Shown here one piece after another: positions 14,750 to 42,206 of a DNA stretch of 64,000 bases. This DNA is from Mucilaginibacter myungsuensis (lineage in GTDB: Bacteria; Bacteroidota; Bacteroidia; Sphingobacteriales; Sphingobacteriaceae): positions 310,001-374,000 of the forward strand of contig NZ_JADFFL010000003.1 in assembly GCF_015222005.1 (NCBI RefSeq), read 5' to 3'. How positions within the stretch are numbered: position 1 is the stretch's first letter; each line of letters opens with the position of its first letter. The translations under genes and the position numbers were made by a program. Under the pieces are notes generated by a model that saw only the letters and a list, made by a program, of their open reading frames with translations, was not told the origin of the DNA and made no database searches.

Positions 14750-14823
14750 CCAAGCGTCCACGCTTACGAAGATCGGGAGCGTGGACGCTCCAATGATCGT
14801 TACGGTTAAGCGTGGACGCTTGG
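14750..14823. repeat. Inverted repeat with a central related copy
   Basis: CCAAGCGTCCACGCTTA (14,750-14,766) is the perfect reverse complement of TAAGCGTGGACGCTTGG (14,807-14,823); a third copy, GAGCGTGGACGCTCC, lies between them and is itself nearly palindromic. The repeat is read through by a GTG-started extension of the next gene, which argues for the later ATG at 14,862. Confidence 0.85.
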
Positions 14824-14861
14824 CCAGGCGGATGAAGATCACCATCAAACTAAACATCAAC

Positions 14862-16661
14862 ATGGATAAAAAAATAACAGAATTAGCTGCTGCCACGTCC
14901 ATCCAATCGTCGGACGTATCGGTGCTGGTACACAATGGGGCCGATCTGCAATATAGCTTTGCTACCTTGCTTACCTTCTTAAGCAGTAACCTAGGGCTTG
15001 GCGCAGCCATCAGCTTTGGTACTACCTTACCCACGAACATTAGCGGCAAGAACGGCGACATATTCTTCAACACAGCCACCGCAGCCATCGCCCAAAAAAC
15101 ATTAGGCGTGTGGACCATCGTTTATAACCTCCCCACTGCCGGGTTAACAGATAGCACCGTGCTTTATGGCATTGGTGTGCCTGCATCAGGCACGGGCAGC
15201 AACGGCGATACATATATCAATACCGCCACGGGTATGTTCTACAAAAAAGCGTCGGACGCGTGGAGCAACGTCTTTTCGATTCTGAACGGACCTGCAGGTG
15301 CCCGCGGCGAAAAAGGAGACAAGGGCGATACCGGTGCTGCCGGGCGAACGATCCTAAGCGGGACGACCAACCCATCTAACCTGACCGACGGCATTAACGG
15401 TGACTACTACATAAACACAAGTAATTTTACCCTTTTTGGTCCGAAGACAGCAGGGGTATGGGGAATAGGCACTAATGTGATCGGTCCCGCCGGGGCAAAA
15501 GGCGATACCGGGAACACAGGACCTCAAGGTGCGGCCGGACCAACAGGAGCCAAAGGCGATACCGGAGACACCGGGCCGCAAGGTCCTCAGGGCGAGGATG
15601 GGGATACCGGTCCGCAAGGGCCGACGGGAGACACCGGCGCCACTGGTCCGCAGGGTATTAAAGGTGATACCGGCGATCAAGGTCCGGCCGGACCAAAAGG
15701 CGACACCGGAGACACCGGTCCGCAAGGGCCACAAGGCGCAAAGGGAGACACCGGTGATGCGGGACCTGCCGGAGCGAACGGCGCTACCGGAGCAGGTGTA
15801 GCGACCGGCGGATCAACCGGGCAAGTGCTCGCCAAAATTAACGGCACCAATTACAATACCCAATGGATAGACCCGCCGGCGGGCGTTACCAAAGCAACGC
15901 TGGCCGAAGTAAATGCAGGTGCTGACGATGCCAAATTCGCTACGGCGTTGGCTTTGGAAGGCTCAAAGTATGCCGATCAATCCGGCGCGAAATTATCAGC
16001 TACGGCATCGGGCACTAATGCTTACACGGCAACTATTAGTCCGGCTATTACGGCTTACTCCAATACACAGCGATTTTACATCCGTTTCACCAATGGCAAT
16101 ACCAACGTGGGCTGCACCCTGGCCTTGAATGGGTTGGCCGCCTTACCGTTAGTGAAGGGTATTAACACCGCTATTTCCGTCGGCGATATTGTGGCTAATA
16201 GCATCCACGTGATCGCTATTGATGGGACAAACGCGCGAATACTTTCCCTATCGGCTATCCCCACCGTAACCACGGGCGAAAAGGTGCTGACCATCACATC
16301 AAGCGGACCGCAAAAGACCTATGACCTGCAGGAGATGTCGGTATCGCCGACGAGCTTGACCGCCGCCGATTTCAGCACCGGCATGGCGGTAGTGACGGGT
16401 TTGCCCGGACAGGTTGCTTACGACAGTAACTACCGTTACGATAGCGTGGGCATTAACCAATGGCGACGCTCGGCCCTGAACGGCAGCTTGGTAGACCTTT
16501 ACCTGGCTGACATTGACGACAGCGCCGGCGACAAGACCAGCGCGCAGCTGCAAACAGCTTACCCGGCATCGGTGATCGGTCAGCAGGTTTGGGGATTAAA
16601 TAATTTATATATCAAAAAAACGCTTACCCTTTGGAAAAAGGTTGCCGCAATAACCGCATAA
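14862..16661 (+). CDS. Collagen-like phage tail fibre protein
   Basis: About 599 residues from the ATG at 14,862, chosen because upstream codons lie in an inverted repeat and because [20 protein letters not shown] is a standard fibre start. The centre contains two Gly-X-Y tracts (near 15,289-15,346 and 15,484-15,800) with many GDTG, GPQG and GPAG triplets, expected to form a trimeric collagen-like shaft. It ends in a C-terminal region of ~280 residues with strand-rich sequence and [20 protein letters not shown], likely the receptor-binding or trimerisation head. The triplet tract is repetitive at DNA level and prone to length change, a known way to vary fibres. Confidence 0.8.
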
Positions 16662-31725: not shown

Positions 31726-32352
31726 TCAGTAATTATTTTTGAGGGCTTTGGCTACCGCTTCGCTCTTGGAATTTACGTGGAGTTTCTCGTAGATCTTTTT
31801 GATATGGGAGCGTACCGTATCGATGGAAATGTACAGATCGACAGCGATCATTTTATAGCTGTGGCCATTCACCAGCAACTGCAAAACCTCAGCTTCGCGG
31901 TCGGACAGATCAAAGTTATCGCCCGGGGAATTGCCTTTCGAGAACATTTTCAGCACTTGCGAAGCGATAGACGACGTCATTGGTGCGCCGCCGGTTTGGG
32001 CGTCCTGAATGTACTCTAATAGCTTTGCAGGGGGTGTTTTTTTAAGCAGATAGCCATTGGCTCCGCTCTTTATGGCTTCAAAAACATTCTGATTATCATC
32101 AAATACAGTGAGCATCAGGATCTTTACGTCACTGTTATGCTTGCGGAGCAGTTTTAGCCCGGCAAGCCCGTCAACATTGGGCATGTTGATATCCATTAAT
32201 ATTACGTCGGGTTTAATGGTGTCGCATTGCTGCACCACATTACTACAGTCGGGGAAAGACCCGGCATATTCAAAGCCTTCGGTGCCACTCAGCAGAATGG
32301 CCAGCCCATCGCGCAATTGCGGATTGTCCTCGTATAGTAATACGCGTATCAT
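31726..32352 (-). CDS. LuxR/NarL-family two-component response regulator
   Basis: A 208-residue regulator. The receiver domain (1-120) carries the acid pair Glu8-Asp9, the phosphoacceptor Asp54 in VILMDINMPN, Thr82 (LTVFDD) and Lys104 (LLKK). The C-terminus (~148-208) is a LuxR-type helix-turn-helix (LSDREAEVLQLLVNGHSYKM, STDTVRSHIKKIYEKL-like sequence). It is encoded 58 bp downstream of a large propeller histidine kinase in the same direction and is almost certainly its partner. It likely activates genes in response to an extracellular nutrient. Confidence 0.95.
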   Translation of the reverse strand: MIRVLLYEDNPQLRDGLAILLSGTEGFEYAGSFPDCSNVVQQCDTIKPDVILMDINMPNVDGLAGLKLLRKHNSDVKILMLTVFDDNQNVFEAIKSGANGYLLKKTPPAKLLEYIQDAQTGGAPMTSSIASQVLKMFSKGNSPGDNFDLSDREAEVLQLLVNGHSYKMIAVDLYISIDTVRSHIKKIYEKLHVNSKSEAVAKALKNNY

Positions 32353-32410
32353 TAATAGTTAATAGTTAAGCGCAAAGTAGGCAAAACAAAACCCGCCGTC
32401 AATCACATAT

Positions 32411-35400
32411 TTATGCGATAGGTATTTTTAGCGTGACCGTTGTCCCAGATGTTTTTTGCGGATCTACGCTGAAACTTCCCTGCATACCCTCGGCCCTTTT
32501 TCGCATATTGATCAGGCCGTTACCCAGGTCCATTTGCTCAGGATCAAAGCCAATGCCGTTATCGGTAATGGTCATCTGCAGCATATCGTAACTTACCTTA
32601 AACTCTATACGCACATCCGTCGCGCCCGAATGTTTTACCAGGTTGTTCAACGCCTCTTTATAGATCAAGAACAGGTTACGCCGCACATCCATATCCAGCT
32701 TCACGTTCCGCAGCTTATCATCGTTCACTACGGTATAGTCAATATCGCGCGGCTCCAGCACCGTAGCGGCGTACTCCCGCATACGGGCAATAATGCGGGG
32801 CATGGTATCATTGGCGGGATTGATGTTCCAAACAATATCATCCATGGCATCCATCATCTGGCTGCTGTTGGTACTGATGCGACCCAGATAATCCTTCACC
32901 TGCGGGTTATCACCCGTCATTTTTATATTAGCCATTTCGCTGAGGATATTGATAGATGTCAGCGTCGACCCCATATCATCGTGCAGATCCCGGGCTACTT
33001 TCTCCCGCAATTTCTGTACGGCCAGTAAGCGGTTAATCCGGGCGCGATAGATCACATAGATCGGCGCCGCCGCAAATATGGCGACCAATAAAATGAACCA
33101 CCAGGTCTGATAAAAGGCAGGTTTAATAATGATACTCAGTTGCGTAATGTTTTTTGACGATATCCCATCCGGACTAACGCATTTCACCAAAAAGGTATAT
33201 CGCCCCGGCGATAGCGAGGCGTAGGATGCCGTCAGCGAATTCTCGGCCTTGATCCAATCTTTACCTGCGCCTTGTAATTGATAATAATAGTTGAGCTTAT
33301 CGCGCTGCGTATAACTCAGGGACGCAAATTGGATCGTAATGGCGTTCTGATCATGCTGCAAAACCAAACCACCCTTAGCCGCTATCGAATCGATATTGAG
33401 GTACGTGTTGAACAGCTTAAGATCGGTGATGGTAACATCCCTGGGCGAACCTTTATCGCGTAAAGCATCCGGATCAAAAATGATAAAGCTATTGCCTCCT
33501 GCAAAAACTAACTCGCCTGTAGCCAGCAGGGTGCAATTATAAAGCATGTTCTTATTATCCGACGTGGTGATAAGCCCGTCCTTTTGATCGAACGCGCGGA
33601 AAGTGTTCTCTTTAAAACTATACCGCACCACCCCGCCATTAGTAGCCATCCATAGCTGCCCTTTTTTATCCATTTGCAGGCAATTGACCATAGGCATAGG
33701 CAAGCCATTATAGTTATTGAACTTGGTTACCTTGCCTGTCGTAGTATTCAGCAGGTTCAAGTTTTCTGAGCAGGCAACGGCCATGATACTATCATTAACC
33801 TGTATCAGATCGGTAATAGAATTGGTGAACAAACTTAGGGATGGATCTTTAGATGTGCCATAGGTCTTTACCACCTGTTCGGTATTAGGATCAAACACTT
33901 TTAATCCGTAACCACCCGTCGCCATCCAGATCAACCCTTTTTTGTCCAGTCGCATTTGGGGGATCACCTTGCCAATGTTGGTAATGAAGTGGAACTTACC
34001 ATTGGTTGTGCGCTTAACAAGCTTTCCTGAGTGTGAGCCGAACCAGATATTATGCTGACGGTCCTCGATAATGCTGCGGATAGAACTGCGTTTAAACGCC
34101 GAATCAACAATGAATTTTGACCGCCTTGCAACCGGGTCGTAGTCGATCAATATCCCCTCTTGGCAGCCAAAAAACAAATGCTTATCTACCGAGTACTCCA
34201 GCATTGACCATGGCGCTGTATAATTGCCGCCCATAAAGGGTGCGCCTTTATAAACATCGCGCGATAATATGCTATCGGTGGTAAGCGACATATCCTGCCT
34301 GTCCATCTCTAACGGAAAGATACCGCCACCCCAGGTACCCAAAATAACCTGCCCGGTACTTATCTGCTTTACAAAGGTCATATCGGTATTGCTGGTGGGT
34401 AGTGTGCCGTGCCTTATCTTTTTGTTAGACACGGTTGTCATATACAAACCATTGTCGCTCGCTATCCAAATGTTTTTATCCCCATCCTGATACACCTGCC
34501 TGATATCGGCAAATTTGATCCCGTAATTTCTGCTTTGGCTATCGTAACATTTGTAAAAGGTGTAGCTCCCCTCGTCAAACAAATTAAAAACATTCCCGCC
34601 CGATAACCATATGCGGCCGGCACATTCGGTAATATCTACCATAGCAAAATAGCCCGGCATATCCGGGTAAACATTATTCTCGAAAGTGACGCCCGTACGC
34701 TCCTCGTAACAAAACAAAGTAGCAGCCGCTAAGGGTGGCCACTTTAACACCCAAAAACGCCGGCGGCTGTCGATCAGCACTTTCAGTATATGATCACCGA
34801 ACTGATGTTTAAGTAAAGGCAAGTTAAGCGGGTTATAACCCTCGTGATAAAACTGCCCGGTACGCTGATGATAGATACCCAAACCCCTGATACCGGTAAC
34901 GATGTAGTCCCCGGTTTTGGGATCTTCTACAAAAGATAAGGCCCGCCAATCTTTAGGGATCTTTAAAGCCGACCATGTTTCGAACTTGTTGTTGCGTTGG
35001 TTATATTTATAGATACCGAAACCGGTCACTCTAACTACTACATTACCTTTACTATCAATAGTTATGGCTTTGTCTACCTCGGGCAGATCAGACAGATCTG
35101 CGGCGGTAAATCTGTTGGTCTGAAAGTTATACTTACCAATAATAGAACCCAATCTAAGCCACATATTGTTCTGCTTATCGCCCAGTATCTGCTGCACGGG
35201 CAAGGCGGGCAAACTGCGCCCGGCTGCCTCGGCATAGATCTGAATGAACTTATTACCATCATACCGTTGCAGACCGCCCTCGGTGCCTACCCAGATAAAA
35301 CCCTTGGCATCCTGCCATAAGCAATTGATGAAATTGGAACGGAGACCATCGTTGATGGATAAGCGCGAAAAAATGATCTCGTTCGCCTGGGTGCTGAGAC

Positions 35401-35500
35401 CGACACCTAACAAACAGACCAACAGAGAGAGGTTAAGCGAAAACTTAAAACGAAAAAAAGTTTTGGTGACAGGTATCAAGCTGAATGTCTTATAGTTCAC
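32411..35500 (-). CDS. Propeller-type (Reg_prop/Y_Y_Y) sensor histidine kinase
   Basis: A 1029-residue sensor, counted from the GTG at 35,500. A TATATTTG box overlaps this codon, so a start a little downstream, for example TTG at 35,479, is possible. Signal peptide, then about fourteen Reg_prop propeller repeats (IFSRLSINDGLRSNFINCLW, AKGFIWVGTEGGLQRYD, KKGQLWMATNGGVVRYS), then a Y_Y_Y domain (LSYTQRDKLNYYYQLQGAGK). One membrane segment ~795-815 is followed by HisKA_3 (ARDLHDDMGSTLTSINILSE, His840) and HATPase (NNLVKHSG, DNGIGFDP). This layout senses periplasmic oligosaccharides in other Bacteroidota. It probably phosphorylates the regulator encoded downstream. Confidence 0.93.
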   Translation of the reverse strand: MNYKTFSLIPVTKTFFRFKFSLNLSLLVCLLGVGLSTQANEIIFSRLSINDGLRSNFINCLWQDAKGFIWVGTEGGLQRYDGNKFIQIYAEAAGRSLPALPVQQILGDKQNNMWLRLGSIIGKYNFQTNRFTAADLSDLPEVDKAITIDSKGNVVVRVTGFGIYKYNQRNNKFETWSALKIPKDWRALSFVEDPKTGDYIVTGIRGLGIYHQRTGQFYHEGYNPLNLPLLKHQFGDHILKVLIDSRRRFWVLKWPPLAAATLFCYEERTGVTFENNVYPDMPGYFAMVDITECAGRIWLSGGNVFNLFDEGSYTFYKCYDSQSRNYGIKFADIRQVYQDGDKNIWIASDNGLYMTTVSNKKIRHGTLPTSNTDMTFVKQISTGQVILGTWGGGIFPLEMDRQDMSLTTDSILSRDVYKGAPFMGGNYTAPWSMLEYSVDKHLFFGCQEGILIDYDPVARRSKFIVDSAFKRSSIRSIIEDRQHNIWFGSHSGKLVKRTTNGKFHFITNIGKVIPQMRLDKKGLIWMATGGYGLKVFDPNTEQVVKTYGTSKDPSLSLFTNSITDLIQVNDSIMAVACSENLNLLNTTTGKVTKFNNYNGLPMPMVNCLQMDKKGQLWMATNGGVVRYSFKENTFRAFDQKDGLITTSDNKNMLYNCTLLATGELVFAGGNSFIIFDPDALRDKGSPRDVTITDLKLFNTYLNIDSIAAKGGLVLQHDQNAITIQFASLSYTQRDKLNYYYQLQGAGKDWIKAENSLTASYASLSPGRYTFLVKCVSPDGISSKNITQLSIIIKPAFYQTWWFILLVAIFAAAPIYVIYRARINRLLAVQKLREKVARDLHDDMGSTLTSINILSEMANIKMTGDNPQVKDYLGRISTNSSQMMDAMDDIVWNINPANDTMPRIIARMREYAATVLEPRDIDYTVVNDDKLRNVKLDMDVRRNLFLIYKEALNNLVKHSGATDVRIEFKVSYDMLQMTITDNGIGFDPEQMDLGNGLINMRKRAEGMQGSFSVDPQKTSGTTVTLKIPIA

Positions 35501-35682: not shown

Positions 35683-36894
35683 ATGGATACCATTAGCCTG
35701 CACGCACCGCAAACCCTGCCCAACGACCGCTCCGTTAGCACCGTCGCAAGCAAACCTTTGCCATTTTATATTTACGCCGTTGTATTCGCATCGTTCAGCA
35801 TTACTGTTGGTTTGATCTGGGATATCGCCTGGCACATCAGTATCGGGCGCGATGGGCTTTTTTCGCCGCCGCATTTGGCTACTTATTTAGGCGCGGTAAC
35901 ATCGGGCTTGTTCTCGGGGTATTACGTTTTGCGGCTGACCTTTGGCGGCCGTAAAGAAGAACGCCAAAGTTCTATCAAGTTCTGGAAGGTTTTTTACGGA
36001 TCTCTGGGCGCGTTATTCTGCATTTGGGGTGCATTCACCATGATCACCTCAGCACCTTTTGATGATTGGTGGCACAATACCTTTGGGCTGGACGTGCAGA
36101 TCTTATCGCCGCCGCATACCGTTCTGTTATTAGGGATGATCACCATACAATTTGGCGCCATGGTCAGTGTGATCGCTTTGCAGAACCGCCTGTCTACCGG
36201 CGCAAATTACTCGCCCAAAGCTTTGGCCTGGTGCTTTATGCTGTCATCAGGATTTTTGTTAGTAATGCTGTTCACCATCGCATCAGAATACCTGACGCGG
36301 CACGATATGCACGAGCCGCAATTCTTCCAGGTAGGCGGCATCATTTTTCCTTTGTTTTTAGTGGCGATATCCAAGGCATCAAAAAGCAAATGGGGCGCAA
36401 CGCAAATGGCGTTAGTTTACATGGGATTGATGGCAGCCATGGTTTGGATACTACCGCTCTTCCCGGCCGAGCCTAAATTAGGGCCGGTGGCTAATCACAT
36501 TACGCATTATCAGGCTTTTCATTTTCCGTTGCTGCTGGTGTTCCCGGCACTAATAATTGACTGGCTGAACCACCGCATACAGGTTAGCGGTTTCGGTAAA
36601 GGCTTGCTGAAAACATTGGCTTTAGGCGCTGCTTTCACGGTGGTGTTTTTTGTGGTGCAATGGTATTTTGGCGATTTCCTCACTACAGAAATGGCCAAAA
36701 GCTGGGTATTCGGCACAACATCATGGTATTTTGGTAACGACCCTAATTATGAGTTCCGTTATAGCTTCCACCCTAACAATATCGCAACAGGCGCAAGGCT
36801 ATGGCAAGGTATGGCCTGGGCTTTGTTATGGTCAGTAGTATCAGCAGGCATCGGCCTGATCTGGGGGCGTTGGATGACATCAGTTAAACGCTAA
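35683..36894 (+). CDS. Multi-pass membrane protein with duplicated DxxWH...SPPH motif
   Basis: A 403-residue inner membrane protein with about nine or ten hydrophobic segments. I do not recognise its family. A His motif occurs twice: Asp47-x2-Trp50-His51 then SPPH61-64, and Asp127-x2-Trp130-His131 then SPPH142-145, suggesting internal duplication and a metal or haem site near the membrane surface. A further His cluster (HDMHEPQFF, HITHYQAFHFP) lies later. It is encoded 15 bp before a periplasmic protein with HLHP motifs, so they are likely co-translated. A role in metal handling or terminal oxidation is inferred only from these histidines. Confidence 0.6.
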   Translation: MDTISLHAPQTLPNDRSVSTVASKPLPFYIYAVVFASFSITVGLIWDIAWHISIGRDGLFSPPHLATYLGAVTSGLFSGYYVLRLTFGGRKEERQSSIKFWKVFYGSLGALFCIWGAFTMITSAPFDDWWHNTFGLDVQILSPPHTVLLLGMITIQFGAMVSVIALQNRLSTGANYSPKALAWCFMLSSGFLLVMLFTIASEYLTRHDMHEPQFFQVGGIIFPLFLVAISKASKSKWGATQMALVYMGLMAAMVWILPLFPAEPKLGPVANHITHYQAFHFPLLLVFPALIIDWLNHRIQVSGFGKGLLKTLALGAAFTVVFFVVQWYFGDFLTTEMAKSWVFGTTSWYFGNDPNYEFRYSFHPNNIATGARLWQGMAWALLWSVVSAGIGLIWGRWMTSVKR

Positions 36895-36909
36895 GCAAAG
36901 GATAAGGAC

Positions 36910-38559
36910 ATGAAAAAACTGACGACCTCCCTCATCCTGCTTTTAATATTTTTAACTACTTCGGCGCATGTGGGCAGCCCGGGTGTGACTTTTGAAGGCA
37001 CGGCCGGGCCATACAAAGCCATCATCAACATCACTCCGCCTGATGTGATCCCAGGCACCGCCACGGTGACCGTTTATTTAGAGGACGCGCCCAAAGGTTT
37101 ACAGGTGAGCGCCCGCCCCATCTATTGGACGGTTGGTAAAGACGGCACCCCAAGCGCCGACATAGCCACACCATCAGCAACCGAGCAGGGCCGTTACGAT
37201 GTAAAGGTCTGGTTCATGAGTATCGGTGCATCCAGCATCGAAGTTATTGTGGACGGACCAAAAGGAAAAGGCGTTGTACTGGTCCCGGTAATGGCATTAT
37301 CAACCGCTAAACGCAGCATGCCTGCCGGATTAGGTTGGGGTTTGCTGGCCATGGCCGCCTTTTTAGTGATACTGATGGTGACCATCATTGGCTCGAGCGT
37401 TGGCGATAGCCAGCTTAACCCGGGCGACGAGATGACCCAACGCTTACGCCGCCGCCGGGTGATCGGCTCAGTAGTATCGTTGGTGCTGTTAGTGCTCATC
37501 CTTTGGGGAGGTAAGAACTGGTGGGATTCAGAGGCGGAGGATTATAAAAGCTACCTGTTCAAGCCCATGCAGGCTACCACAACGGTTGATGCCGGCAATG
37601 GAACGCTGACCTTCTCGATAGACACCGCGCAACTAAAATACCTTGGTCGTGGCCGGCGCATGGGCACCACCCGTAAAATGAATTACATAGTGCCCGACCA
37701 CGGTAAGCTGATGCACCTGTTCCTGGTCCGCGCCGGCGATCTGGATGTGTTTGCGCACCTGCACCCCCGCCGCGCTGATTCGGTCACCTTTATATCTAAA
37801 GTACCAAAGCTGCCCGCAGGTAAATATTTTGTTTACGCCGACATTACCCGCCTAAGCGGTTTTACCGAGACCATTGTAGATACGCTGGACGTGAAGGAGA
37901 ACCTGTTCCGCAACGCGGCACTGGAAGCCAAGACCGAAACCTTGGCCGACCCTGACGATACATACTATACCAACAACCCTATGGGCAGCCGCGCCCTTAC
38001 CCGCCCCGGCGCGGCCATGTGCGGCTTACCGGGCGTTGCCGCCCAACTAAATGATGGTTCATCAGCGATATGGTTGCAGGATCCTAAAAAACCTATCCAG
38101 GCCAACGAGCTGACCACGCTGAACTTCGAGATCAAAGACCCCGAAGGCAAACCCGCCGTACTTGAACCCTACATGGGCATGATGGCCCACGCTGTGATCC
38201 TAAAGGATGATGGCAGCGTGTACATCCACCTCCACCCGGCGGGCAGCTATTCCATGGCATCGCAAAAGGCGCTGCTGGACAGGATAGCCTTTAACAAACC
38301 ACTGGATGAATACCTGCCCAAACCGTCGGTATTTGCAGATAGCATAGATCACTTTGTGGCCAAGATCAATGATATGCCCGCAGCCGAGCGCGACAAATTG
38401 TTGATGACCAACATGTCCGACATGAAATCCGACGGCAAGGCACATCATCAGGTGAGTTTCCCGTACACTTTCCCGCAACCGGGCAAGTACCGCATTTGGA
38501 TACAAGCCAAACGCAACGGAAATATCATCAACAGCGCTTTTGATGCGGAAATAAAGTAG
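36910..38559 (+). CDS. YtkA-like periplasmic protein with two HxHP motifs, membrane-anchored
   Basis: A 549-residue protein with a signal peptide (TTSLILLLIFLTTSAHVGS). Residues ~20-125 resemble the YtkA/CopC-like Ig domain (TVTVYLEDAPKGLQVSARPI). Two membrane segments follow (GLGWGLLAMAAFLVILMVTI; VIGSVVSLVLLVLILWGG), so the following ~325-residue domain is again periplasmic. It contains HLFLVRAGDLDVFAHLHP and HAVILKDDGSVYIHLHP, two H-x13/12-HLHP motifs, and a closing FPYTFPQPGKYRIWIQAKRN. These motifs resemble copper-protein and heavy-metal domains. Together with the His-rich membrane protein upstream it may form a metal-binding complex; metal identity is unknown. Confidence 0.6.
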   Translation: MKKLTTSLILLLIFLTTSAHVGSPGVTFEGTAGPYKAIINITPPDVIPGTATVTVYLEDAPKGLQVSARPIYWTVGKDGTPSADIATPSATEQGRYDVKVWFMSIGASSIEVIVDGPKGKGVVLVPVMALSTAKRSMPAGLGWGLLAMAAFLVILMVTIIGSSVGDSQLNPGDEMTQRLRRRRVIGSVVSLVLLVLILWGGKNWWDSEAEDYKSYLFKPMQATTTVDAGNGTLTFSIDTAQLKYLGRGRRMGTTRKMNYIVPDHGKLMHLFLVRAGDLDVFAHLHPRRADSVTFISKVPKLPAGKYFVYADITRLSGFTETIVDTLDVKENLFRNAALEAKTETLADPDDTYYTNNPMGSRALTRPGAAMCGLPGVAAQLNDGSSAIWLQDPKKPIQANELTTLNFEIKDPEGKPAVLEPYMGMMAHAVILKDDGSVYIHLHPAGSYSMASQKALLDRIAFNKPLDEYLPKPSVFADSIDHFVAKINDMPAAERDKLLMTNMSDMKSDGKAHHQVSFPYTFPQPGKYRIWIQAKRNGNIINSAFDAEIK

Positions 38560-40665: not shown

Positions 40666-41394
40666 ATGAAATGCGCACTGGTGACCGGCGGGTCCAGAGG
40701 GATAGGTAAGGCCATTTGTTACAAAATGGCCAAGGCCGGCTACTACGTTCTGATCAATTATAACAGCAATGCCGACGAGGCTAACAATACCCTCGCCCAG
40801 ATCCGCGAGCAAGGCGGCGATGGCGAGATCATTCAATTTAACGTAGGCGACAAGGAACAAGTTGACAGCGTGCTGGGCGGTTGGATAGCTGCCCATACCG
40901 ATAGACACATTGAAGTGCTGGTGAACAACGCCGGCATTAAAGACGACGTGCTGATGGCCTGGATGGAATACCCGCAGTGGGATAATATCATCAAAACCAG
41001 TTTGTACGGTTTTTATCATGTCACCCATTTGGTACTTTCAGGTATGCTGACAGAACGTTACGGGCGCATTGTTAATGTGGTGTCGTTATCTGGCATCAAG
41101 GGTATGACCGGACAAGTGAATTACTCGGCCGCCAAAGCAGGCGTTATCGGCGCGACCAAGGCTTTGGCCTTAGAAGTTGGGCGGAGCGGCATCACCGTTA
41201 ACGCCGTCGCCCCGGGCTTCATTAAGACCGACATGACCGGCGACCTGGACGAGAAACAACTGAAGGCGCTGATCCCCATGAAACGTTTCGGCACGGCAGA
41301 TGAGGTGGCGAGCACGGTTGCGTTCTTAGCATCCCGCGATGCTTCTTATATCACCGGCGAGGTCATCTCTATCAACGGCGGTTTGTACACCTAA
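40666..41394 (+). CDS. 3-oxoacyl-ACP reductase (FabG-type SDR)
   Basis: A 242-residue short-chain dehydrogenase. It has the nucleotide-binding TGGSRGIGKA (residues 7-16), NNAG (87-90), and the catalytic Ser140, Tyr153 and Lys157 in VNVVSLSG and NYSAAKAG. FabG reduces 3-oxoacyl-ACP with NADPH. It is followed by two hotdog-fold genes at 13 and 10 bp spacing, so the three are likely one operon acting on the same acyl chain. The house-keeping fatty acid FabG is usually elsewhere, so this copy is probably specialised (aryl polyene/flexirubin-like), but no ketosynthase is in the window. Confidence 0.9.
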   Translation: MKCALVTGGSRGIGKAICYKMAKAGYYVLINYNSNADEANNTLAQIREQGGDGEIIQFNVGDKEQVDSVLGGWIAAHTDRHIEVLVNNAGIKDDVLMAWMEYPQWDNIIKTSLYGFYHVTHLVLSGMLTERYGRIVNVVSLSGIKGMTGQVNYSAAKAGVIGATKALALEVGRSGITVNAVAPGFIKTDMTGDLDEKQLKALIPMKRFGTADEVASTVAFLASRDASYITGEVISINGGLYT

Positions 41395-41407
41395 TTCGTT
41401 TTGACAG

Positions 41408-41830
41408 ATGCTTGTACCGCAAGAAGATATTTTAACCCTCATCCCGCAAAGGCCTCCTTTTGTGATGATCAGTACATTGATAGAAAGCAATGAGACAAGT
41501 TCGACAACGACGTTCACCATTCCATCAGACAATGTATTGGTAGAGAACGGCAAACTCAGCGAAGCGGGATTGTTAGAGAACATCGCCCAAACCGCAGCAG
41601 CAGGAACAGGCTACGCCGCCCAACAGAACGGCGCGGGTGTAAAGGACGGCTACATCGGCGCGATCAAAAATTTAGAGGTATTCGATAGAGCTAAAATCGG
41701 CGACACCATAGTTACCACGATCACTATCGAGGACCAGATCTTTGATGCCACCCTCATAGCCGGTTCGGTAAAATTGAATGGCCAGCTTATCGCCCAATGC
41801 CAAATGAAAATCTTTATTAGTAGTAACTAA
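41408..41830 (+). CDS. Hotdog-fold dehydratase subunit lacking the catalytic His (ApeP-like)
   Basis: A 140-residue hotdog protein. The FabZ-type active-site acid is present as Glu57 in GLLENIAQTAAAGTG, but the usual GHFPG histidine loop is replaced by NVLVENGKLSEAG, and the start LIPQRPPFVM replaces the FabZ PHRYPF. This matches ApeP-like subunits of aryl polyene gene clusters, which pair with an ApeI-like partner. The following gene carries the missing histidine. It likely functions as half of a heterodimeric 3-hydroxyacyl-ACP dehydratase. Confidence 0.8.
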   Translation: MLVPQEDILTLIPQRPPFVMISTLIESNETSSTTTFTIPSDNVLVENGKLSEAGLLENIAQTAAAGTGYAAQQNGAGVKDGYIGAIKNLEVFDRAKIGDTIVTTITIEDQIFDATLIAGSVKLNGQLIAQCQMKIFISSN

Positions 41831-41840
41831 GTCGCCCCTC

Positions 41841-42206
41841 ATGCTCCAGAACAATTTATTTACGTTTACCGGATCATCCACTGAGGGGAATTTGATCAAA
41901 TTTGCTATCACGCTTAATGCTGATAGCTCGATCTTTGCCGGGCATTTCCCCGGGCAACCTGTGTTACCGGGCGTTTGCATGATGCAAATGGTAAAGGAAG
42001 CTATAGAAACACACCTCGGCCAAAAGACCGATCTGGTGAAGGCAGCTGATCTAAAATTTTTGTCGATGATAGATCCGGGACAAACGCCTGTTTTGAGTTT
42101 AGAAATTAAGTTAACCGCTTTGGAGGAGCGCTATAATGCGGACGCGAAGTTGTTTGTGGATGATGTGGTTTTCTTTAAGTTTAAGGGGACGTTTAAAGTC
42201 CAATAG
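41841..42206 (+). CDS. Hotdog-fold dehydratase subunit with catalytic His but no Glu (ApeI/FabZ-like)
   Basis: A 121-residue protein with the FabZ motif GHFPGQPVLPGV and His35. Fourteen residues later, where FabZ has its catalytic Glu (PGVLILE), it has Gln49 (PGVCMMQ). The preceding gene has the Glu but no His. In hotdog dehydratases the His and acid come from different subunits across the dimer interface, so together they could form one working site. This pairing is known for ApeI:ApeP. It probably dehydrates a beta-hydroxyacyl-ACP after the FabG step. Confidence 0.82.
   Translation: MLQNNLFTFTGSSTEGNLIKFAITLNADSSIFAGHFPGQPVLPGVCMMQMVKEAIETHLGQKTDLVKAADLKFLSMIDPGQTPVLSLEIKLTALEERYNADAKLFVDDVVFFKFKGTFKVQ

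Follow-up and report, generated by a model that had tools for sequence, protein, structure and literature searches.

A gene pair of Mucilaginibacter myungsuensis that resembles copper membrane monooxygenases in metal signature and predicted shape

Two adjacent genes of Mucilaginibacter myungsuensis, a soil-type bacterium, encode membrane proteins, here named A and B, that resemble the copper enzymes oxidising methane and ammonia in metal signature and in predicted shape. The genes lie in a window of 64,000 nucleotides (contig NZ_JADFFL010000003.1, positions 310,001 to 374,000 of the forward strand, numbered here from its first letter), which belongs to a 5.09-Mb assembly. We consider it probable that A and B are the two subunits of a copper-binding membrane complex with a distant kinship to copper membrane monooxygenases (CuMMO), such as particulate methane monooxygenase (pMMO), ammonia monooxygenase (AMO) and hydrocarbon monooxygenase (HMO). 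CuMMOs control methane and ammonia oxidation. The original prediction, made from the letters of the window, had guessed at a metal-binding or oxidoreductase complex that matched no named system. The guess was a fair one, and copper is now favoured as the metal. The lack of a named counterpart is true in part only, as A carries the motifs of the PmoC copper sites, the remainder of A is predicted to fold like PmoA, and the histidine module of B also occurs in copper islands, though not always. The features of A and the extent of both genes are as follows:

35683..36894, + strand: gene A, a 403-aa membrane protein with nine long predicted helices; a single chain combines a PmoC-like N-terminal part and a PmoA-like C-terminal part
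35821..35874, + strand: first motif of A, codons D47-H64, D-x3-H-x12-H, DIAWHISIGRDGLFSPPH
36061..36117, + strand: second motif of A, codons D127-H145, D-x3-H-x13-H
36208..36891, + strand: PmoA/AmoA-like predicted fold of A, codons 176-403 (9leg_A, Z 13.6, model residues 176-403)
36910..38559, + strand: gene B, 549 aa, exported and membrane-anchored; a predicted beta domain, two helices and a periplasmic histidine module, in a PmoB-like order of parts

The open frames and their translations bear out the motifs, the coordinates and the intergenic gap of 15 nt that had been described, with both genes on the same strand. DxxWH-x9/10-SPPH occurs twice in A (D47-xx-W50-H51-x9-S61PPH64 and D127-xx-W130-H131-x10-S142PPH145), and H-x12/13-HLHP occurs twice in B (H269-x13-H283-L-H285-P and H427-x12-H440-L-H442-P). 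Two points had gone unmentioned: His20 of B, and the identity of motif spacing between A and PmoC. In PmoC, the CuC ligands are Asp156, His160 and His173, which read as D-x3-H-x12-H (PMC7584546), and the CuD ligands are Asn227, His231 and His245, which read as N-x3-H-x13-H (PMC12576850). The first motif of A has exactly the CuC spacing. The second has the CuD spacing, but with Asp instead of the Asn found in CuMMO. D-sites are described as not universal in CuMMO (PMC9038741). When the first motif of A (DIAWHISIGRDGLFSPPH) was compared without gaps with that of a PmoC from a viral contig (DGTWHMTVIRDTDFTPSH), 8 of 18 residues were identical, and the likeness includes W, RD and PxH identities.

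Relatives of A numbered 313, of which the best 80 were kept; the closest of these belong to Mucilaginibacter. Conservation and profile work was based on the window and 79 loci; for alignments A1 and A2, an 88% identity threshold on A reduced the set to 60 rows. Four loci were excluded: L001, which repeats the window, L002, which is truncated, L067, in which a contig end cuts B, and L003, which has no A. Because L026 and L027 have identical match figures, locus counts overstate independence. The original prediction hinged on the conservation of the motif histidines, and these turned out to be invariant in 80/80 aligned orthologues of both proteins. In A, the invariant residues are H51, H64, H131 and H145, together with Asp47, Asp127, Asp128, Arg56 and Asp57; in B, they are H20, H264, H269, H283, H285, H427, H440 and H442.

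The paired spacing [DN]-x3-H-x12-H ... [DN]-x3-H-x13-H was found in 163 of 2254 distinct open reading frames (ORFs) of at least 150 aa, divided into 95 A-like, 67 PmoC and 1 other; as the loci had been chosen for holding A or PmoC, only the single outsider measures chance. Profile comparison with hhalign brought both motifs into one alignment when the A family was matched with 14 PmoC sequences (E 0.0019). A larger PmoC profile was made of 62 sequences, 55 of them ORFs of at least 240 aa from viral contigs (75 had been found) and seven plasmid genes. With both motifs in register, this profile gave E 5.1e-4 for Bacteroidota A, E 5.5e-4 for an independent family of actinobacterial relatives described below, and E 2.1e-4 (score 38.9) for the pooled A families. 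The pooled score was reached by 0/450 column shuffles (best 29.3) and by 0/5 unrelated polytopic families (best 23.9). For the first motif, a window of 63 columns alone yielded E 1.5e-6 for Bacteroidota, alongside the full conservation of D47, H51 and H64, and E 1.2e-6 for actinobacteria. Neither score was reached in 200 shuffles each, and when 318 windows were taken from 41 other families (including pmoA, pmoB and B), none attained the Bacteroidota score (best 22.4 vs 33.4). Among Pfam families, AmoC (PF04896) was the best match, at the motif and below threshold, in 2/5 actinobacterial relatives (E 0.044 and 0.094).

The two motif windows of A also resemble each other (E 1.3e-5, 0/100 shuffles), and so do those of the actinobacterial relatives (E 5.2e-11, 0/100 shuffles). 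No such resemblance could be recognised between the two site windows of PmoC, where 38/100 shuffles reached the real score. The repeat that is visible in the A family points to, but does not prove, an origin of both CuC and CuD in a single hairpin that was duplicated.

In the AlphaFold2 (AF2) model of A (mean predicted local distance difference test score, pLDDT, 85.7 for B and 89.1 for A; predicted template modelling score of A 0.88), the motifs sit at the ends of helices 28-53/62-88 and 108-134/143-172. The loop between these hairpins, residues 89-107 by the AF2 helix bounds, has 5 K/R and would be cytoplasmic by the positive-inside rule, which would place both motifs on the periplasmic side.

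The rest of A also points to CuMMO, by predicted fold. In a VIA-align 2 search with the A model, ten pMMO/AMO entries rank first (Z 13.0-14.3) and TRPML1 comes next, at 8.8. The ten matches align 192-208 residues with chains of 238-274, with a root-mean-square deviation (rmsd) of 3.7-4.3 and once 6.1; two of them cover model residues 176 to 402 or 403, and the remaining ones start earlier. Queried with PmoA from a plasmid, phmmer identified the matched chains as PmoA/AmoA, either by the printed chain (6cxh_B, 9cl1_Ca, 4phz_B, 9cl6_B, 9leg_A and 9pxf_D) or by entry and length (7s4l, 9cl2, 7s4h and 3rfr), PmoC and PmoB being other chains. PmoC chains are not among the structural matches listed for A, nor PmoB chains among those listed for B; this is no counter-evidence, because one chain is listed per entry. 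A PmoA-like fold of the C-terminal part of A has moderate support, and we give the match that weight because, by a separate route, it leads to the enzyme that the motif also indicates.

The two genes are linked. Neither full-length A nor full-length B was met alone in the genomes searched, as anticipated when co-occurrence of the two was proposed as a check. Within the genus, A was found in 11/120 genomes; these 11 are also the ones with B, which lies next to A every time. At the phylum level, a search with the single A protein found A in 3/247 genomes, one of them by a weak match of 52 aa. That match (G171/L003, E 5.2e-4) was dropped, as no A-like or B-like ORF exists at the locus. A profile search of the phylum found A in 5/395 and B in 7/395, the latter made up of the five with A, at full length, and two partial matches of 64 positions. 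Among 82 loci with A, including the window, B lies directly downstream in 79 (in one case cut by a contig end) and directly upstream in three (L044, L048 and L053). The distance from A to B, measured from the longest ORF start, ranges from a 4-nt overlap to 15 nt in 61/79 pairs; 17 others overlap more, and one is 100 nt apart. The distance matrices of A and B correlate with r 0.95 over 80 loci, which is weak evidence because such correlation is expected for neighbouring genes. The linkage counts in favour of the explanation preferred here. Duplications of A beside B were also seen: L035:5933-10045 reads A-B-A', with both motifs kept in both copies, and G366:C1:314153-318505 reads A-A-B.

Protein B has the following parts:

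36910..36966, + strand: predicted signal peptide, residues 1-19, with cleavage just before invariant His20
36967..37305, + strand: N-terminal beta domain, residues 20-132, nearest solved fold CrdA
37324..37524, + strand: two predicted transmembrane helices (AF2), about 139-168 and 177-205
37699..37767, + strand: first histidine cluster, H264-x4-H269-x13-HLHP, with invariant histidines
38188..38238, + strand: second histidine cluster, H427-x12-HLHP, with invariant histidines

The original prediction had placed the histidine motifs behind a YtkA-like domain and two membrane spans; here they follow a signal peptide, itself predicted, then a beta domain and two helices, and the AF2 model of B shows the beta domain, the two helices and a large periplasmic part. 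A basic stretch, RLRRR, opens the second helix. Position -1 relative to His20 is occupied by A (47), S (21) or G (12) in 80/80 orthologues, and these are the residues favoured before a signal-peptidase cut; therefore, mature B very probably starts with His20. PmoB likewise has a mature N-terminal histidine, His33 (PMC7584546), and shares with B the order of signal peptide, beta domain, two helices and periplasmic domain.

The beta domain itself departs from PmoB. Its nearest fold is that of the copper protein CrdA of H. pylori (Z 11.1, 101 residues aligned, rmsd 2.5, 12% identity), followed by the CBM56 beta-sandwich 5t7a (Z 10.1) and FetP (Z 9.1, 11% identity). Since the carbohydrate-binding 5t7a scores nearly as well as CrdA, the copper meaning of the CrdA match is weak. 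The original prediction had called this domain YtkA-like (PF13115). A weak match is indeed present, but at E 0.07 and 14.2 bits it falls short of the cut-off of 25.9; among 60 orthologues of B, 11 match at E<=1 (best 0.00094). A complete CuB site is missing from B, as the N-terminal domain has no histidine besides His20 and the HxH motifs, found twice, come after the two helices. HLHP recalls the HVHP, HLHP and HIHP read around CuB ligands in plasmid PmoB sequences; it stands in a different domain of B, and there is therefore no PmoB-type CuB site as such.

The C-terminal half of B is akin to a free-standing module, H-x4-H ... HxHP ... GHxVxL ... HVHP. Against six such modules, from Gloeocapsa, Planococcus, Priestia, Natrinema and two Bacteroidota (L243 and L244), hhalign gave E 7.7e-27 and brought all seven invariant histidines of the two clusters into register. 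The free-standing modules have neither the N-domain nor the helices of B, and no A in the stretches read. Three of the six neighbourhoods are clear heavy-metal islands. That of Gloeocapsa has a heavy-metal-associated (HMA) domain, a P-type ATPase, a cupredoxin and a metal regulator; scanned genes of the L243 island encode DUF305, an outer-membrane efflux protein and an AcrB-family pump, and those of L244 a P-type ATPase with HMA, a cupredoxin and a CusB-type adaptor. Only YdhK and DUF305 proteins are near the Planococcus module. In Rhodococcus, where the match is shorter, the neighbourhood includes a P-type ATPase and an ArsR-type regulator. In L243:5377-6321 and L244:5374-6321, the HxHP module is fused to the heavy-metal-binding domain HMBD, beside a DUF305 protein and efflux genes; this fusion is probably a copper-binding family without a name.

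Five relatives of A outside Bacteroidota, described as 'hypothetical' proteins, were found by tblastn on actinobacterial plasmids. They are clearly related to A (E 5e-15), keep both copper motifs and join, in one chain, an A-like part to a C-terminal domain that is exported and starts with AxA|HDPGQG in 5/5 and is weakly FixH/YtkA-like in 1/5:

L103:7944-9371, actinobacterial fusion
L104:8007-9452, actinobacterial fusion
L223:5986-7455, actinobacterial fusion
L224:5992-7482, actinobacterial fusion
L225:6004-7437, actinobacterial fusion

Three of six actinobacterial plasmid neighbourhoods read are copper islands. Leifsonia has two P-type ATPases, a metal-sensitive regulator, YHS, HMA, a multicopper oxidase and a copper-binding four-helix protein; S. 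mirabilis has a cupredoxin, HMA and a P-type ATPase; and Streptomyces F2 has a multicopper oxidase, a cupredoxin and CcsB/ResB. Two Mycolicibacterium neighbourhoods hold a CopY/BlaI-type regulator with TlpA/CcdA or with a YHS protein, and that of Rubrobacter, as read, has no copper genes. A plasmid of M. chubuense NBB4, pMYCCH.01, carries an A-like fusion gene plus a CuMMO operon.

Metal genes near the pair had also been anticipated. They are found near several relatives elsewhere but not in Bacteroidota (80 loci). Recurrent Bacteroidota neighbours were scanned, and some less frequent ones were read by eye. The scanned ones are M23 peptidase, FAA hydrolase, NlpC/P60, HAD, transketolase, amidohydrolase, penicillin amidase and ABC1, together with two small ORFs without a Pfam match; none was recognised as a redox partner or a catabolic gene. 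As the neighbours vary by lineage and those scanned are housekeeping genes, reading a function from the Bacteroidota neighbourhood was rejected. Copper is the metal that we infer for A and B, because three sides agree: the PmoC-type sites, the kinship of the module and the neighbourhoods of relatives.

Several observations weigh against kinship with CuMMO and against copper. Taken alone, the second motif of A gave E 0.31 against the CuD window, which is not significant, though the match is in register (7-42 on 7-42), and whole-profile hhalign probabilities of A vs PmoC are only 30-46%. Among the matches listed, none of the scanned A and B members reaches the Pfam threshold of any CuMMO subunit. 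In 60 A members from Bacteroidota, AmoC is absent from the 25 of 29 matched families listed, and the best E among these is that of a ZIP zinc transporter (0.0022, 2/60). The other three actinobacterial relatives gave no match, FixH first, and Acyl_transf_3 (E 3.4e-5, below cut-off), respectively. The link to PmoA is by fold only: the C-terminal half of A scores 19.9 against the PmoA profile while shuffles reach 25.7, the identity of the A model to PmoA/AmoA chains is 12-15%, the best AmoA match in Foldseek is weak (E 0.32), and VIA-align 2 itself cautions that helical bundles may reach Z ~13-14 through arrangement alone. By sequence, B vs PmoB gave E 0.22, and the HxHP motifs lie outside the N-terminal domain, unlike CuB. 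No copper genes lie near the modules of Priestia and Natrinema, the latter having an ArsR-type regulator, and the 80 Bacteroidota loci show one P-type ATPase and no multicopper oxidase or HMA motif. Three further searches were empty: the PF04896 profile had no match in the M. myungsuensis genome at E<=10, searches of PDB sequences with A or B, single or as profiles, returned nothing relevant, and Foldseek against viral models gave no usable match.

Under a copper-binding complex of A and B, B would capture periplasmic copper by its HxHP clusters and N-terminal histidine and pass it to the twin site in A, whose four-helix part would hold two PmoC-type copper sites on the periplasmic side (D47/H51/H64 and D127/H131/H145) next to the PmoA-like helical part. 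For the end use, our tentative first choice is copper handling, be it capture, redox buffering or delivery; this leaning comes from the copper islands and from the scanned neighbours, among which no redox or catabolic partner recurs. Behind it, as a possible but less likely use, we rank a reaction of oxygenase or oxidase kind that activates O2; the sites of CuC and CuD type kept in A, along with its PmoA-like part, are what draws us in that direction.

The strongest competitor is that the pair is a true oxygenase of CuMMO type, in which the twin D-H-H site of A would activate O2 and hydroxylate or oxidise a small hydrophobic substrate or ammonia while B supplied copper or a second site. Both PmoC-type spacings and a PmoA-like part are indeed kept in the one chain of A, and the Asp and two His of the C-site are described as important for enzymatic activity (PMC9038741). 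We find this doubtful, however, since no gene besides A and B adjoins A in more than 30/82 loci (positions -2 to +3). To this can be added the scanned neighbours, in which no redox or catabolic gene was seen, the incomplete CuB site, the three of six relatives in copper islands and a sporadic presence, in 11/120 genomes of the genus. CuMMOs have three separate genes, xmoC, xmoA and xmoB; here there are two, and the C-like and A-like parts share a chain. Because gene number, CuB and profiles all speak against membership, the pair is kept outside CuMMO proper. A bolder speculation, rather improbable at present, is that A/B survives from an early branch of the line that led to CuMMOs, as an O2-activating two-subunit copper enzyme with PmoC and PmoA parts in one chain, whose twin sites would record the CuC/CuD duplication.

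A second alternative is that the pair imports copper or acts as a metallation factor, in the manner of YcnJ or CopCD and without descent from CuMMO, in which case the likeness to PmoC would be convergence on a D-x3-H / H hairpin. YcnJ of Bacillus joins CopC, with a functional H24, to a copper-binding membrane domain and YtkA (PMC13344008), an arrangement paralleled by the membrane copper part and exported beta domains of the pair, and the N-domain of B is nearest CrdA by fold. Yet the motifs differ, window A and B have no Pfam match to CopC or CopD at E<=10, and both are absent from the families listed for 60 orthologues of each protein (25/29 for A, 25/34 for B). Moreover, convergence would have to bring together, in one chain, a PmoA-like fold, both spacings and also the identities at W, RD and PxH. 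We therefore regard this explanation as unlikely. A site for zinc or another metal that serves structure, transport or sensing in the envelope is very improbable: Asp and His ligands alone are not copper-specific and there is the weak ZIP match in two A members, but copper neighbourhoods surround several relatives of A and of the module of B.

If A/B is a relative of CuMMO, it bears on a standing question, as the copper site that is active in CuMMO is described as disputed (PMC7584546). In a relative with sites of CuC and CuD type and without a complete CuB, nature would have set up an experiment on where copper is bound and used, and the internal repeat of A offers a testable origin for CuC and CuD. 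A working name would also be gained for a family in which 313 relatives were found and which lacks a Pfam assignment, and bacterial copper biology would gain a module. In the open-licence literature, which leaves most subscription papers and preprints outside, no report was found of the pair or of a Bacteroidota relative of CuMMO, and the string 'Bacteroid' is absent from the main text of two CuMMO surveys (PMC6215863 and PMC9038741).

Additional observations were made along the way. Genes for PmoC of at least 240 aa were found in 55/80 viral-contig loci (L106-L185), which agrees with pmoC reportedly occurring in phages (PMC7674155). In the window, a Reg_prop/Y_Y_Y sensor histidine kinase and a response-regulator-like ORF (31726-35500, - strand) are divergent from the A/B pair, with 182 bp between. 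Downstream, 40666-42206 contains a FabG-like reductase followed by two small ORFs, the first without a Pfam match and the second FabA/ApeI-like, and reads as a short fatty-acid or polyene-type set. Finally, 14781-16661 encodes a 626-aa protein with collagen triple-helix repeats (PF01391).

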